Source: an uncultured Granulosicoccaceae bacterium
GTDB lineage: Bacteria > Pseudomonadota > Gammaproteobacteria > Granulosicoccales > Granulosicoccaceae
DNA: 64,000 nt
Assembly: GCA_937998875.1 (NCBI GenBank)
Contig: CALLBO010000032.1
Span: 1 to 64,000 of the forward strand
Direction: 5' to 3'
Part shown: positions 22,688-30,134 of the stretch, in pieces
How the letters are laid out: the number at the start of each line of letters is the position of its first letter
How positions within the stretch are numbered: position 1 is the first letter of the stretch
Made by a program: the position numbers and the translations under genes
Notes under the pieces: generated by a model
Told to the model about the DNA's origin: nothing
Databases searched by the model: none
Seen by the model: only the letters and a program-made list of their open reading frames with translations

Positions 22688-23416
22688 CTACCGGCTTTTA
22701 AGTTGCAAATACATACTTGCGTATCGCCGACCAATCTCACGTAAAGCGGCTGCATTAAAATGAATTCCATCTGTGGTTTGTAAACCGTTCGAGCTGACAC
22801 AGCCGGTATAGCGATCTGTGTCGTTATTCAGTGCCATCAATCTCCGGTTAACTGGAGCGATTTCGTTTGGATCCGGATTGGTCTTCTGTGTTTCTCCACA
22901 GATAAAGACTGGTTTATCACCACTGAACCACGGTTCCTGACGCAGATTTCTTATTAGTGTATTGAGCCGGTCCGGATAGTAGTCTGGAGCGAGCTTTTCA
23001 GCAGCAGGTGCTGTTATATCTGATGTTCCGTTAAAGAGAAAGTCTGTTTCTCCCTGATGCCATAGAACACCATCAAACGATGTCCTGTTGCTTGCGTTTA
23101 ACGCTGTCATGGCTTTGTTTGACAGGGTGTTGTAGAAACTGCTGCCGCGGTCCCACTGCCGGATTCCAGCGCCCGGTGCAGTGACCAGCACGAATCCGAT
23201 GACCCGGTTTGGATCCAGGGCCACAAGTGACTTTCCAAAGTGGATAGCAAAGTTATTGTGCGGCGTATTGGCTGGAAATATCAGTGAGTTCCCACCGGGA
23301 TGTCTGCTTTCAATAGGGCCGTCCCAGTGCTGTCTTAAATCGGCCACCTGCCAGCCATCTTCATCAGTGAAGGCAAATACCTGTTTACTGGGTGCACCAG
23401 CACGGCAAGACTTACT
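22688..23416 (-). pseudogene. Carbohydrate (sialate-type) esterase domain, frame-disrupted
   Basis: C-terminal part of a secreted SASA/SGNH-like esterase. In one frame it reads SKSCRAGAPSKQVFAFTDEDGWQV, then the domain through LWHQGETD (block with the conserved HQGE) to DGIHFNAAALREIG (catalytic Asp-x-x-His). The first block with the nucleophile serine, DLILITGQSNAQGN, lies just upstream but in the +1 frame, and a TAA (23417-23419) separates the two parts in the main frame. Two compensating single-base events, near 23462-23475 and 23400-23420, would restore one protein with the upstream gene. It is either a recent pseudogene or a sequence error; a GTG start at 23347 would give a 219-residue protein without nucleophile. 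Confidence 0.72.
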
Positions 23417-24175
23417 TTAGTTGTATTGCCCTGGGCGTTGGATTGTCCGGTAATCAGAATTAGATCTGTCAAAACCGGGCGGTGTAATTGTATCCCTTAC
23501 AACCCCTGTTCCTGTCGTTGTTGTGCTGCCACCGTTGCTGACACGGCAGGAGGCCACACCGTTCCAGCCGTAACCATCTCCATCAGAATCCAGGCACTCT
23601 CCTACGGCTATTGTAATAGCCGCCGGGGAGGAGTTATCGGGTTGATTGTTATCAGGGGTGCAGGTGGCCAGACCGTTCCATCCGAATCCATCGTTGTCAG
23701 AGTCAATACACTCACCAGCAGTAGCTTGTGTCTCAGTAAGTGGTTCCTGAACTGTATTCGGGTCTGACAACGTGCAACGCATAGTAGCCAGTGAGTCGGA
23801 GAACAATGTTGCCACCGCGTAGCGGGTATTTTGTGGTGCGCGTCCTGGGTTTATACGAAGGGTTCTACTGGAATTTGTGTTATCCGAAGATGTACTCAGC
23901 TGTCTAAAATTTGTATCAGAAAAGGCCAGCTGCGCGCTGGTGAAGTTTGCAGTACGTGTCTGGCAGACTAACTCCAATTCATCCCTGGCCTCGGCCGTGA
24001 TTTCCTGATAAAGGCACTCTGAGTTGAGCTCGACGGTACCCGCTGCATTTATTGTACGGTCATTGTCGCTGCAGGAAATCCAGGTGTTCTGCAGTACATT
24101 CGGACCAGCGTTGACGTTTGTGCTGAGTAACAGGAGAAATGTGGAAAAATAGAGTAGCGTGCTGCGTTGTGCCAT
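23417..24175 (-). CDS. Secreted protein with two Asp-rich Trp repeats (N-terminal part of a broken esterase gene)
   Basis: 252 residues as read. Signal peptide to about residue 23 (LLLLSTNVNAG). Two copies of a repeat of the form EC-[IL]-DSD-x-DG-[FY]-GWNG-x-A-[ST]-C occur at about 153-170 and 192-209; this cysteine-flanked DxDxDG motif is common in secreted proteins of aquatic gammaproteobacteria and may bind calcium. The reading ends with SNSDYRTIQRPGQYN and a stop, but the +1 frame at the same place codes for the esterase nucleophile block, so the natural product was probably a single protein of about 490 residues continuing into 22688-23416. Confidence 0.75.
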   Translation of the reverse strand: MAQRSTLLYFSTFLLLLSTNVNAGPNVLQNTWISCSDNDRTINAAGTVELNSECLYQEITAEARDELELVCQTRTANFTSAQLAFSDTNFRQLSTSSDNTNSSRTLRINPGRAPQNTRYAVATLFSDSLATMRCTLSDPNTVQEPLTETQATAGECIDSDNDGFGWNGLATCTPDNNQPDNSSPAAITIAVGECLDSDGDGYGWNGVASCRVSNGGSTTTTGTGVVRDTITPPGFDRSNSDYRTIQRPGQYN

Positions 24176-26293: not shown

Positions 26294-27049
26294 ATGTCTG
26301 AAGTAAATCAAATTATTGATACTCTAAAACAGCTGCTCAAGGAAAAAGACAAGACTCAGTACGATGTTGCAGCAGTTTTGAACCTGGGGGTCGCCAGAGT
26401 CAAACAGATGTATTCCAAGAACGATTTTCATATCCAGCGACTTGCGACAGTGTGTAACGAGCTGCTTGATATGGAGCTGTCTGATCTGGTACAGATTACC
26501 CAGGACCGCCAGAAGTATATCGAGCAGCTGACCGAGAAGCAGGAGAAGCAGCTAATCTCAGATGATCGTCTGCTGGTGGTTGCAGTATCTATTATGAACA
26601 ACTGGACGCCGACGGAGATTGTCGAACGTTATGAGATTTCTGATGCCGAGTGTCATCGTCATCTGGTGACATTGGAAAAACTCAAGTTGATTAGTCGCCG
26701 TGCTAATGGTCGAATTAAATTACTGATTGATCGCAATTTTCAATGGATACCGAATGGACCGCTTGAGCAGTTCTTCCGCCGTCATGTACAAAGCGATTTT
26801 CTTGATGCAGGTTTTAACAAGCCGGGTGAGGTTAGGCTTTTCCGAACTGGCATGCTGACGTCAAAATCTGCTGAGGAACTGACGCGGCGTATAGATAAAG
26901 TGGTTAACGAATTTGTGGATCTTAATCGAGAAGACGCCCAGCTTGAGCTACAACATCGAGTTGGATACAGCTTTCTGGTCGCAATGCGCCCGTGGTTAAT
27001 GCCGTCATTTACCAAGCTGCTGCGCCGAGACCTGAGCCTGAAGGATTGA
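26294..27049 (+). CDS. HTH transcriptional regulator, XRE-like N-terminus
   Basis: 251 residues. Residues about 5-65 fit an XRE-type helix-turn-helix (DKTQYDVAAVLNLGVARVKQMYSKN), followed by a linker helix and a second winged-helix-like region (NNWTPTEIVERYEISDAECHRHLVTLEKLKLIS, about 105-140). The C-terminal 110 residues are an effector or dimer domain I cannot name. Single gene; no operator was found upstream. The last three codons and stop are duplicated in tandem just behind the gene. Confidence 0.8.
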   Translation: MSEVNQIIDTLKQLLKEKDKTQYDVAAVLNLGVARVKQMYSKNDFHIQRLATVCNELLDMELSDLVQITQDRQKYIEQLTEKQEKQLISDDRLLVVAVSIMNNWTPTEIVERYEISDAECHRHLVTLEKLKLISRRANGRIKLLIDRNFQWIPNGPLEQFFRRHVQSDFLDAGFNKPGEVRLFRTGMLTSKSAEELTRRIDKVVNEFVDLNREDAQLELQHRVGYSFLVAMRPWLMPSFTKLLRRDLSLKD

Positions 27050-27118: not shown

Positions 27119-28078
27119 TTACGGTTGCAGTACCGGCCCGGGTTTAACGACCTGTATTCGCGGGCCTGATGAATGCCATTTGGTCGCACCCTCCAGCGAT
27201 TTGTGATCAAGGTGGGTGATGTACCAAAATACAATATCCTGGCGGTCGATACTCTCACTGTCGTTATAGTGGTCGCCTATCTCTCCTCTTGCACCGAGAC
27301 GCCAGCCGTTGGTTTCGCTTCGTCGCCATTTACGCACGGCCACGTCCCACTGGGAGAAGTCATCGGTAAATCCGTCATAGGGACCCGGATCAACTTCTAC
27401 CCGCAGTCCGGTTTCTGCGTCTCTAATGGTCCAGTAGTTTGTACTGACCTTACGATCGTTAAACTCTGAAGTCTGCAAGTCACCACTGTTCTTCAGTACC
27501 TGGTCTTCCCTATTTTCGTTGAGGTCGAAGTCAAACATCCAGTGGGCATGGTGACGATGATCTTCTTCACACTGCAAACCACGGCTGAATATGTAGGAAT
27601 CCATGAATCCTTTAGGGCTAAAAATGTAGGCTTGATAGATATCGTAGTCACCCAGCTCGGCATTGACGCCAAGCTCCAGATAGTCGTTGCCATCCTGCGT
27701 ATAGGTTCTTGCGCACATGCCGGAGCCGTTACAACTGTCGTATGGTGGATTTAGTTCTATAGGGACATAAACACTGCTCCACAATATGTCTGCAAACGGT
27801 CCACAGACATCATTATCGTATTCAACTCGCATCACTGGAAAACTGGCTTTGGACAAAATTTTAAGATCGTCAAAGTAGACTTCCGTTAGCTCCAGTCCCT
27901 GTGCACCCCCGGTGCTGTAGGAAAACTCCCAGCCTTGCCAGCTGATATCACCCTGATAGGCGTGACTCACAGGCATCGAAAAAAATCCGAATAAACAAAA
28001 GATCAGCTTCAGGTGAAGGTTGTGCTGTAGGTGAAAACGGATGTTCATTAGATGATGATGTTTACTAGACAGCTTCAT
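27119..28078 (-). CDS. Divergent copper-amine-oxidase-like catalytic domain protein
   Basis: 319 residues; signal peptide to about residue 40 (MPVSHA). The mature part follows the order of the copper amine oxidase catalytic domain: WQGWEFSYSTGGAQGLELTEV with MRVEY; then LGDYDIYQAYIF (142-153), aligning with the TPQ site GNYDYIFDWIF so that Tyr145 falls on the cofactor tyrosine; DHRHHAHWMFDFDL (173-186), matching the H-x-H copper block; FSQWDVAVRKW; and DIVFWYITHLDH (281-292), matching the WYTxxxxH block with the third copper His. It is about half the normal length and lacks N-terminal domains, which seem to be on the overlapping upstream gene. The Asn before the tyrosine is Asp here, so activity is unproven. 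Confidence 0.6.
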   Translation of the reverse strand: MKLSSKHHHLMNIRFHLQHNLHLKLIFCLFGFFSMPVSHAYQGDISWQGWEFSYSTGGAQGLELTEVYFDDLKILSKASFPVMRVEYDNDVCGPFADILWSSVYVPIELNPPYDSCNGSGMCARTYTQDGNDYLELGVNAELGDYDIYQAYIFSPKGFMDSYIFSRGLQCEEDHRHHAHWMFDFDLNENREDQVLKNSGDLQTSEFNDRKVSTNYWTIRDAETGLRVEVDPGPYDGFTDDFSQWDVAVRKWRRSETNGWRLGARGEIGDHYNDSESIDRQDIVFWYITHLDHKSLEGATKWHSSGPRIQVVKPGPVLQP

Positions 28079-28974
28079 TGGATTGAACCGCTGTTTTCAA
28101 CAGAGTTGGTGCTTAGATTAACCAAGGCGCGATACTCGGGAAGTTTCCCGTTGCCTTCACCGAACGTGACATAGATTTTTCGTTCAGCAAAAAAACTGGC
28201 CCCACTTGCGGCAGTTTGAACTGCTGTCGGAAAAGCCAGGAGGCCGGTTCCAGACAGATTGTTGTGACCGGTAAATCCCTGGCGGGTTAGATGACTGGCT
28301 GCCAGTTCGATTGCCCGTGCCACTTCCGCTCTGGATTCAGGTGGTTGATAGAGCTGCGCCGCTACGGTGGAGTGATCGATAACTTCGGTGCCCGTTGCAT
28401 CAAGTGTGACGGTTACAACTCGATTGCTATCGTAGTTGAACATCTCGATCTCTATAAGGCTTGCGGTACCTGATTTGTCCTGAAGTTTATGTTGCGCCAG
28501 AATCTCGTGCCGCGCACCTAGTGCATTGTATATATCTAGAAATTTTATCAGTTTGGTGCTGATTTTCGCTACTGTGTTCGAGGTATCTTTAGCGGCAATG
28601 ACTGCTATGTTGGTGATGTCCTCCGGCTGAGGAGGCCAGATATTCTGATTAGAGTCGGTGAAGCGGATTTGATCTGTGATCACGTGGTTGTCTTCGACGG
28701 TTGTAACAATTTCTGTTGTTTGGTTTGGCCCTGTCGGGGCCTGCTCACCCTGTGATTGTACCTGTGGCGTGTTCAAATCAATTGCATTCGGGGACTGCGT
28801 TTGTAGCGGCATTTCATCAGTCTGTGAACCCACGGTGCTGCTTTCACAGGCGGAAAGAAGCACGCACGGCACCCCTGCAACCAGCACCACGATTAGAATT
28901 GACAGACGTCTGTGCAGACGCTTAAAAACGTTTGCCCGGTATCTCTGTATTTCTGCTAACTGTATTGCTGACAC
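28075..28974 (-). CDS. Lipoprotein resembling amine oxidase N2/N3 domains
   Basis: 299 residues. Hydrophobic segment about 26-42 ending in LLSAC gives a lipobox (Cys43), so it is membrane-anchored. After a Gln/Thr-rich linker (about 45-95), the segment VVTVTLDATGTEV, DHSTVAAQLYQPPESRAEVARAIELAA and LTRQGFTGHNNL resembles the N2/N3 arms of copper amine oxidases (V..L..PP.t..E...A......L..rG). The stop shares ATGA with the next gene, the catalytic-like part, so the products are made together and may form one split enzyme. The similarity is by eye and moderate. Confidence 0.55.
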   Translation of the reverse strand: MSAIQLAEIQRYRANVFKRLHRRLSILIVVLVAGVPCVLLSACESSTVGSQTDEMPLQTQSPNAIDLNTPQVQSQGEQAPTGPNQTTEIVTTVEDNHVITDQIRFTDSNQNIWPPQPEDITNIAVIAAKDTSNTVAKISTKLIKFLDIYNALGARHEILAQHKLQDKSGTASLIEIEMFNYDSNRVVTVTLDATGTEVIDHSTVAAQLYQPPESRAEVARAIELAASHLTRQGFTGHNNLSGTGLLAFPTAVQTAASGASFFAERKIYVTFGEGNGKLPEYRALVNLSTNSVENSGSIQ

Positions 28975-29039: not shown

Positions 29040-30134
29040 CTAATTTGTATTGGTGTTTTCCAGAGCTGGCTTTTTAGTCGGGCTAGTCGGATGCTCATGA
29101 TTTGTATAGTTTTCAATAAGCTCAGTCAATTCGTTGGGCTCGTGGCCGGCAAAGAGCTGCACGGTCTCACCTTTTCGAAATACCGAGATAACGACCGGCT
29201 CGTTAAGGTGTTCATCTGAGTCAGGCAGTACGGCAGCGAAGTCATGTGGATTTTTGCATACAAGACCGTTGATGGAGAGTATGAGATCACCACCAAGCAG
29301 CATTTTTTTTCCACCAATCTCTGAAGGTACTGTGCCTGCGGTCAGACCTGCCTTTGCCATTAGTGAATTAGCATTGACTCTTTGCACGAGCAGGCCGGAT
29401 TGCGGCAGATTCAGTAGAGCGGCGGTTTGATTATCGAGCATAATCCCCTCGAATCCTGCGAGTAACCCTGAGCTTGTCAACAGTGCCTGTTTCGTTGTGT
29501 TGCTCGAAGTAGCAAAGCCGATACCGTCAAAGCCCCCGCTTTTTGTCAGAATAAAGCTGACTATGCCAATTACTTCGCCATTGGTATTGAACATGGGGCC
29601 GCCGGAGTTGCCTGTATTTATTGCTGTATCTGTTTGCAGGAACTCAATGGGTGTGCCGCGAGCCATCAACCCGCGGTTCAGCCTGCCTGATAAATGACCG
29701 ACGCTAAGTGTCTGGGAAATGCCGAACGGTGCGCCGATAATAAATACTTCACTCCCTATGGGTGTGGCATTGGAATCTGCAAGGGTAGCAATCTGTGGTG
29801 CAGGATGACTCTCTCGCAGTTTGAGTAGTGCAACATCACTCGCGGTCAGTGAGGAAATTACGTCCGCCTGAATTCTGATGCCGTCAGTAAATAAAACTTC
29901 GATCGCCTGTGCCTGATCGATCACATGTGCCGCAGTGAGAATCTGGTCTTCTTCGATCAGAACGCCTGAACCGATACCGAGAGCTGCATCAGAGGGATCT
30001 TGTCCGGATTCGACTGTGGCGGTAAATATGGTTACTACGGATGCCGAGTGTTTTTCGTACAGAGCTGCAAAATCTGTCTTGCTGTTGGCGTGTGAACTCG
30101 AAAACAGACAAAGTAACAGCAGAATTGTGCGCAT
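29040..30134 (-). CDS. Trypsin-like serine protease with PDZ domain (Deg/HtrA type)
   Basis: 364 residues; signal peptide to about residue 18. Catalytic triad visible: His in LTAAHVID (about 70), Asp in ASDVALLKL (about 100), Ser in NTGNSGGPMFN (about 175). One PDZ-like domain follows (LPQSGLLVQRVNANSLMAKAGL, GGDLILSINGL). Single PDZ as in DegS, but with a cleavable signal, so periplasmic. It lies 65 bases before the lipoprotein/amine-oxidase-like pair on the same strand and may belong to the same transcript. Confidence 0.9.
   Translation of the reverse strand: MRTILLLLCLFSSSHANSKTDFAALYEKHSASVVTIFTATVESGQDPSDAALGIGSGVLIEEDQILTAAHVIDQAQAIEVLFTDGIRIQADVISSLTASDVALLKLRESHPAPQIATLADSNATPIGSEVFIIGAPFGISQTLSVGHLSGRLNRGLMARGTPIEFLQTDTAINTGNSGGPMFNTNGEVIGIVSFILTKSGGFDGIGFATSSNTTKQALLTSSGLLAGFEGIMLDNQTAALLNLPQSGLLVQRVNANSLMAKAGLTAGTVPSEIGGKKMLLGGDLILSINGLVCKNPHDFAAVLPDSDEHLNEPVVISVFRKGETVQLFAGHEPNELTELIENYTNHEHPTSPTKKPALENTNTN

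Follow-up and report, generated by a model that had tools for sequence, protein, structure and literature searches.

A two-gene variant of the copper amine oxidase family in Granulosicoccaceae: a predicted lipoprotein with N2-N3-like domains beside a compact catalytic protein

According to a 2012 review, all structurally characterised copper amine oxidases (CAOs) are homodimers of 70-80 kDa chains, with two small alpha/beta domains (D2 and D3, about 100 residues) and with arms of the dimer that project from the catalytic domain (PMC3382800). The same review holds proteins containing LTQ to be non-homologous to CAOs (PMC3382800); what the lysyl oxidase (LTQ) family shares with the proteins discussed here is, in principle, copper-dependent amine oxidation. 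For AGAO, the CAO of Arthrobacter globiformis, the active-site residues have been named as Tyr284, Asp298, TPQ382, His431, His433 and His592 (PMC9491219). The gene pair that we describe here has much in common with CAOs such as AGAO and the E. coli enzyme: the catalytic fold, the order of the motifs, the tyrosine at the topaquinone (TPQ) site, three histidines, the aspartate base, the tyrosine in contact with the cofactor and, judged by modelled structure, the presence of domains of the N2-N3 type. It differs from them in consisting of two polypeptides instead of one 70-80 kDa chain, in carrying its N2-N3-like domains on a lipoprotein, and in having a shorter catalytic domain in which the Asn before the cofactor tyrosine is replaced. 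Because that Asn of the consensus and the single chain are both missing, we regard the pair as a variant of the CAO family and not as a typical member. Our reading, to which we give a probability of roughly 70%, is that the two genes encode a two-component CAO located in the cell envelope; its activity, copper, topaquinone, complex, location and substrate are all predicted from sequence and modelled structure.

The pair, made up of the lipoprotein gene P0002 and the gene for the exported protein P0001, occupies positions 27119-28974 on the minus strand of the window, by which we mean the whole stretch of 64,000 nucleotides analysed from an uncultured Granulosicoccaceae bacterium (contig CALLBO010000032.1; genome G000 below). 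An earlier interpretation made from the letters alone, here called the sequence-only reading, had described two overlapping genes with an ATGA junction that together resemble a CAO. Both open reading frames were found where it had placed them, and the motifs that it quoted are present in the two products (Table 1).

Table 1. Positions of the two genes, their junction and the predicted active-site residues in the window
Feature	Position	Strand	Description and basis
P0001	27119..28078	(-)	319 aa, ATG start; predicted exported compact CAO-type catalytic domain
P0002	28075..28974	(-)	299 aa, GTG start; predicted lipoprotein, linker, then two alpha/beta domains probably equivalent to CAO N2-N3
ATGA overlap, P0002 stop / P0001 start	28075..28078	(-)	Sequence; tight junction in 26/26 other loci
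Tyr87, equivalent of AGAO Tyr284	27818..27820	(-)	Alignments
Asp97, equivalent of CAO catalytic base (AGAO Asp298)	27788..27790	(-)	Alignments; low-confidence model stretch, block mean pLDDT 66
Tyr145, equivalent of topaquinone precursor tyrosine; preceded by Asp144, Asn in CAOs	27644..27646	(-)	Alignments
His174, predicted copper ligand	27557..27559	(-)	Alignments
His176, predicted copper ligand	27551..27553	(-)	Alignments
His292, predicted third copper ligand	27203..27205	(-)	Alignments

On the evidence of profile comparisons and of its predicted fold, P0001 belongs to the CAO family as a catalytic domain in compact form. Its N-terminus has a hydrophobic stretch ending in VSHA, by eye an export signal of its own, and this, together with the length of the frame, agrees with the 319 residues and the signal peptide originally ascribed to it. 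All 27 aligned members of the P0001 family match the Pfam model Cu_amine_oxid (PF01179) with an E value of at most 0.001 (best 8e-15). The full-length window protein scores 21.2 bits (E 1.5e-4), which is under the curated cut-off of 27, and the mature protein 27.4 bits, just above it; the match of the window protein covers the first motif only (profile positions 17-62), with the active site outside it. A search of PDB sequences with the family profile (hmmsearch) found the E. coli CAO (1qal) with an E value of 1.9e-5 in four collinear blocks, which correspond to the domain start, the topaquinone and H-x-H sites and the third His, the single blocks being weak (-0.5 bits for that of Tyr145). When the family was compared by hhalign with six full-length CAOs taken from the class-wide search, the result was Prob 98.3 and E 1.6e-14 over 249 columns. 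The AlphaFold2 model of residues 40-319, built with 27 sequences, has a pLDDT of 87.0 and a pTM of 0.88, with low confidence for residues 51-80 of the model (blocks of mean pLDDT 66, 61 and 57), around Asp97. Compared with the PDB by Foldseek, the best 50 of 765 matches to this model were all CAOs (TMq 0.69-0.77; top match 3hi7_B, E 9.6e-15, TMq 0.72), at a high rmsd of 6.2-8.5 A among the matches listed. The assignment of this product to the amine oxidases thus held at the level of both profile and structure, and, judged by sequence and predicted fold, the pair would work like a CAO.

The catalytic domain of P0001 is, at the same time, considerably reduced. The stretch from Trp47 to His302 is 255 residues long in the window protein, compared to 377-394 in the six full CAOs, so that about 120-140 residues are missing relative to the latter; the equivalent stretch in the split relatives from genomes G121 and G020, described below, has 329-353 residues. 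The interval from the base to the tyrosine is 48 residues in the window protein and 84-91 in CAOs, that from the tyrosine to H-x-H is 29 versus 49-58, that from H-x-H to the third His is 116 versus 157-160, and the stretch after the third His is 10 versus 25. With 120-140 residues gone, the arms of the homodimer may have been lost as well.

The active-site residues are conserved. In a joint alignment of the 27 family members, five active-looking and four inactive-looking split relatives and six full CAOs, the residues Tyr87, Asp97, Tyr145, His174, His176 and His292 are identical in all of the family members, all of the active-looking relatives and all of the CAOs. From this alignment and from what we know of the family, we take them to be the counterparts, in the same order, of the six AGAO residues listed at the outset (Tyr284 to His592). 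Across 18 divergent members, ten alignment columns are invariant, including those of Tyr87, Asp97, Tyr145, His174 and His176, and His292 is kept in 17 of the 18. The sequence-only reading had rightly put Tyr145 on the topaquinone site, where it aligns with the precursor tyrosine of 6/6 CAOs and is kept in 27/27 members, but its copper site has to be moved: it had chosen His177 and His179 as the H-x-H motif, whereas both hhalign and the joint alignment give His174-Arg-His176, three residues away, as the predicted ligands. For the third ligand it had offered His289 or His292, and only the latter stands. Positions 177 and 179, considered as ligands and rejected, have His in 25 and 17 of the 27 members and in none of the six CAOs, and in L074 and L075 (L018 and L027 of another alignment) the H-x-H motif aligns without gaps.

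This pattern bears on the possibility that the pair derives from a CAO and is no longer an amine oxidase, the two proteins forming a copper- or substrate-binding pseudoenzyme complex in which the tyrosine stays unmodified. The deletion of much of the catalytic domain would be in keeping with such a loss, as would the missing consensus Asn in all 27 members and the existence of clear pseudoenzymes among the relatives, namely, all four inactive-looking proteins. However, the pseudoenzyme relatives have lost active-site residues (these tandem paralogues lack Tyr145, His174 and His176 in 4/4 cases, and Tyr87, Asp97 and His292 are each absent in 3/4), whereas the six residues are invariant in the window's own family and five of them remain so across the wider family, where ten columns in all are invariant. 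We consider the loss of amine oxidase function unlikely.

The surroundings of the tyrosine are less conventional. The position before Tyr145 is occupied by Glu in 24, Ser in two and Asp in one of the 27 members, the last being the window protein, while all six CAOs have Asn, and the position after it by Gln in 14, Glu in seven and Asp in six. The consensus at the topaquinone site of CAOs is given as T-x-x-N-Y-D/E (PMC3382800), and it is found in full in none of the 27 members, as the Asn before the tyrosine is absent throughout. It had been suggested from the sequence that Asp in this place might mean a different cofactor. However, as the review reports for HPAO-1, the exchange Asn404Asp reduces the rate at which topaquinone forms only by a factor of two, 5-10% of the topaquinone remains with Asn404Ala, and Glu406Gln, after the tyrosine, brings a decrease of an order of magnitude in that rate (PMC3382800). 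Since Asn404Asp is tolerated in HPAO-1, an Asp before the tyrosine does not imply a different cofactor; the Glu and Gln flanking the tyrosine in many relatives instead suggest that cofactor formation may be slower or differently tuned. A CAO-fold copper enzyme with some other tyrosine-derived cofactor or a copper-tyrosyl site, acting on a non-amine substrate such as the sugar hydroxyls of polysaccharides, would agree with Asp, Glu or Ser before the tyrosine, with the extra modules on all three of the long paralogues scanned (see below) and with the galactose-oxidase-like gene that neighbours one of the fused relatives, on a plasmid of Variovorax. Given that Asp is compatible with topaquinone in the review's account (PMC3382800) and that Asp97, the equivalent of the CAO base, is invariant, we rate such an enzyme as very unlikely.

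The partner protein P0002 was described from its sequence as a lipoprotein whose second half resembles the N2 and N3 domains of CAOs. The first part of this description agrees with a hydrophobic N-terminus that ends in the lipobox LSAC at Cys43 (by eye), beyond which a long linker leads to the folded C-terminal half. A loose four-residue lipobox pattern is present in 25/27 members, the match in L074 being doubtful and L067 and L075 having none. The second part is supported by structure and not by direct sequence comparison. The AlphaFold2 model of residues 90-299 (pLDDT 88.2, pTM 0.75) consists of two domains of the alpha plus four-strand type, and the best 35 Foldseek matches in the PDB are all CAOs (TMq 0.45-0.52; top match 2cwt_A, E 2.7e-5), aligned over 178-199 columns of the 210-residue model with both domains in order and at a high rmsd of 5.2-6.3 A. 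The modelled domains also fit the description of D2 and D3 in the review (PMC3382800). At the sequence level, none of the 27 members of the P0002 family matches the Pfam N2 or N3 models, P0002 or its alignment gave no useful match in Pfam, NCBIfam or PDB sequences, and hhalign of the family against full CAOs was not significant (Prob 0.85, versus 0.80 for a reversed control). The P0002 family together with a relative from Microvirga does match three fused compact relatives in their N-terminal part (Prob 65, E 5.9e-5; Prob 0.11 for the reversed-profile control), and these three match the N-terminal part of CAOs (Prob 52, E 1.4e-4); the family without the Microvirga protein matches the fused protein of G220 alone weakly (Prob 1.2). 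With good but not complete confidence, we assign the modelled C-terminal half of P0002 as the N2-N3 pair.

The linker of P0002 has two His separated by at most three residues in 22/27 members, the window protein being one of the five without them, and His accounts for 55 of 951 residues in the linkers of the family compared to 92 of 5091 elsewhere. Judging by this composition, the His-rich linker could bind copper. Such a linker, and the lack of a significant sequence match to the N2 and N3 domains, would also suit an unrelated, cystatin-like lipoprotein that is a separate partner for copper delivery or anchoring and not the N2-N3 half of the enzyme. We give this little credence, as an unrelated protein would not be expected to have CAOs as all of its best 35 structural matches over most of the model and with both domains in order, or to resemble a stretch that is N-terminal in the single chain of three fused relatives.

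The two genes go together in nearly all places where they are found. Relatives of P0001 are present in 19 of the 95 related genomes searched: in 13/14 genomes of the same genus (the window's own included), in 5/34 others of the family and in 1/47 genomes of the class, the last a weak and doubtful match with an inner stop. Among the 46 genomes searched with P0002, all 22 places with a P0001-type match have an adjoining P0002-type match, and G015 has a weak P0002 match (E 0.0027) without a P0001-type partner. A scan of GTDB contigs gave 26 loci with both genes in every one, of which 21 are labelled Granulosicoccaceae and three Chromatiales (one from an associate of Bugula neritina), while two are from one MAG labelled Deinococcales. 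The two surveys are not independent, because 24 of the 26 contigs, judged by their length, were already part of the 95-genome search and two were new. In class-wide searches, the P0002 alignment found only the window's own genome (1/369), the catalytic alignment A1 found 4/369 genomes, PF01179 9/369 and PF02728 2/114, and a phylum search with alignment A4 found 23/398, mostly frames of 668-817 aa that we took, as a group, for ordinary CAOs.

In all 27 loci, counting the window, an in-frame start of the catalytic gene lies between -4 and +10 nucleotides from the upstream stop, and the junction is ATGA in 12 of them. The overlap itself is all that would speak for a frameshift or an assembly error splitting one ordinary CAO gene, and such an artefact can be ruled out for all practical purposes, since the other 26 loci are split as well, the catalytic protein starts with a separate export signal (by eye) and the relatives, too, have a short catalytic domain. 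A split, lipid-anchored, half-size form had been put forward as a new architecture; the split is confirmed, although with 26 other loci it is not unique to the window genome.

Two forms of the catalytic protein can be distinguished: a short one of about 300 aa in ten of the 26 loci and in the window, and a long one in the remaining 16, in which C-terminal modules are added. In the three long forms scanned with Pfam, these are CBM_4_9 (L062), Big_7 and CBM_4_9 (L059) and PPC (L074, with TSP_3 below the cut-off). The window genome has both forms (G000:C32, short, and G000:C20, long). In FastTree trees of the two genes, the same 11 short-form sequences group together with supports of 0.996 and 0.972, which means that the pair was duplicated as a unit. 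A mirror-tree correlation of r 0.96 was given no weight, as a value of this size can result from common ancestry alone.

Other arrangements of compact or split CAO-like genes were found among more distant relatives. In G121 (L100) and in G020 (L103), of which the second is from the same family as the window, an inactive-looking and then an active-looking catalytic gene follow an N2-N3-like gene of 222 and 235 aa, respectively. At L101, also in G121, an N2-N3-like gene of 224 aa lies between two pairs of inactive- and active-looking catalytic genes, and at L102 of the same genome there is one active-looking gene, with no N2-N3-like gene seen in the 10 kb covered; G121 also contains a CAO frame of ordinary length (704 aa). 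These clusters are like the window pair in having a separate N2-N3-like gene beside the catalytic genes and unlike it in their longer catalytic domain and in the adjoining active- and inactive-looking genes, an arrangement that could possibly produce an asymmetric dimer. Their N2-N3-like genes match CAOs by profile with Prob 66 (39 in another comparison) and the P0002 family with Prob 5.6 (reversed 0.16), and the copy at L079/L100 has no Pfam match. In G411 and G790, a cytochrome-like gene (Cytochrome_C7 for the copy at L106) is followed by a lipoprotein gene and a catalytic gene that overlap. Because this lipoprotein has no significant hhalign match to the P0002 family (G411, Prob 1.85), we regard the likeness as one of layout only. 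In this branch, Asp replaces the third His (L106 and, by eye, L141).

Plasmids carry relatives too, with four of 72,556 records in a plasmid collection matching P0001: two replicons of Variovorax sp. WDL1 and one each from Microvirga ossetica and Nonomuraea gerenzanensis. The Microvirga genes form a split pair, and the product of the first gives Prob 98.8 and E 1.2e-16 against the P0002 family, while the Variovorax (529 aa) and Nonomuraea (518 aa) proteins are fused. Together with that of G220, the fused proteins span 518-561 aa and are like the window pair in their compact catalytic domain and N2-N3-like N-terminal part and unlike it in being one chain, with no export signal by eye and with Trp before the tyrosine. 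A galactose-oxidase-like gene adjoins the fused relative on the Variovorax plasmid. In their records, the proteins of Variovorax and Microvirga carry the annotation "hypothetical protein".

The central proposal of the sequence-only reading, that a CAO-like enzyme is divided between a lipoprotein with N2-N3 and a catalytic protein of half size, is upheld, with CAOs as the best structural matches of both products and with the tyrosine and histidines aligned to those of real CAOs. If the pair is a two-component CAO, P0002 would be exported and anchored at the membrane by a lipid on Cys43, with its two C-terminal alpha/beta domains acting as N2-N3, and P0001 would likewise be exported and fold as a compact CAO catalytic beta-sandwich. 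One copper would be bound by His174, His176 and His292, Tyr145 would be oxidised in place with this copper and O2 to topaquinone, Asp97 would be the catalytic base and Tyr87 would hold the cofactor. Made together from overlapping frames, the two proteins would form a complex in place of the single 70-80 kDa chain and oxidise primary amines outside the cytoplasm, giving aldehyde, ammonia and hydrogen peroxide. The purpose would most likely be nitrogen supply or an action on the amines of surface polymers. Genes matching AllG, a CoA-ligase and AllH (by Pfam in the L052 copies) precede the pair in four of the 26 loci (L052, L053, L055 and L057), a context that is a hint of nitrogen supply, and the carbohydrate-binding modules on the long paralogues are a similar hint of a surface polymer as the site of action.

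A bolder extension, which we hold as tentative and rather doubtful, is that the pair belongs to an undescribed superfamily of compact CAOs in which a membrane-tethered, trans-acting N2-N3 subunit uses its His-rich linker to supply copper and complements the active site of a catalytic subunit that is exported separately, other branches being fused, equipped with carbohydrate-binding modules or accompanied by an inactive catalytic subunit. Among the papers listed from the open-licence PMC literature, no report could be recognised from its title or the start of its abstract as dealing with a split or two-gene CAO, and there may be one elsewhere. With a CAO that is naturally split and shortened, it becomes possible to test the role of N2-N3, because these domains can be added or omitted, and likewise to test which portions of the catalytic domain an enzyme needs to make its own topaquinone. 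The pair shows, too, that genes of this kind stand in annotated records as "hypothetical protein" and that bacterial CAOs are more diverse than the family models show.

Comparisons of coding sequences within three pairs gave a dN/dS of 0.12-0.17 for the N2-N3 gene in all three, at a dS of 2.2-3.1 that is near saturation, and a dN of 0.11-0.13 in all three for the catalytic gene, for which dS was saturated and not computable. In the window itself, an HtrA/Deg-like protease gene (29040-30134) lies upstream of P0002 on the same strand, and downstream of P0001 there is a convergent gene (26294-27049) with weak HTH matches.

In the window, the gene for a SASA-type carbohydrate esterase looks interrupted, since two open reading frames stand where a single one of 558 amino acids is found in L053, a locus of the P0002/P0001-type gene pair. 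The esterase frame itself encodes 219 amino acids (Pfam E value of 9.8e-22), and the product of the upstream frame, 252 amino acids long, resembles the tails of the long copper amine oxidase (CAO) paralogues.

The linker of the predicted lipoprotein P0002 is enriched in histidine across the family, at 55 of 951 residues compared to 92 of 5,091 elsewhere. It is possibly a tail that binds copper, but only one histidine occurs in this linker in the window. Two of the gene pairs (L059 and L066) lie within one MAG labelled Deinococcales, which may reflect either horizontal transfer or misbinned contigs.

Among the relatives from the plasmid collection, the compact CAO-like gene of Variovorax sp. 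WDL1 plasmid 3, which is of the fused form, precedes one whose annotation reads galactose oxidase-like. In Microvirga ossetica the catalytic gene seems to have been annotated with too late a start, because the open frame extends upstream as far as the N2-N3 gene and this extension carries the first CAO-like motif, along with a glycine-rich insertion.

In the clusters that combine a cytochrome-like gene with a lipoprotein gene, the CAO-like protein has Asp in place of the third His, and the L106 copy of the 657- to 687-amino-acid protein had no match in Pfam at an E value of 0.01. In L100, L101 and L103 (genomes G121 and G020), CAO-like catalytic genes with and without active-site residues lie adjacent to each other and adjoin a separate N2-N3-like gene; the neighbouring catalytic products could possibly form an active/inactive heterodimer.

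Coordinates of the features discussed
Feature	Location	Strand	Basis or scope
SASA-type esterase frame and upstream frame	window 22691-24175	(-)	Pfam, comparison with L053
P0002 linker between lipobox and N2	window about 28640-28848		also L050-L075
Fused CAO-like gene and following gene	L108 5308-9089		Variovorax sp. WDL1 plasmid 3
Catalytic gene with a seemingly late annotated start	L109 5500-7626		Microvirga ossetica
Cytochrome-like gene, lipoprotein, CAO-like protein, 657-687 aa protein	L106 50-5975; L141 1459-7244		two genomes
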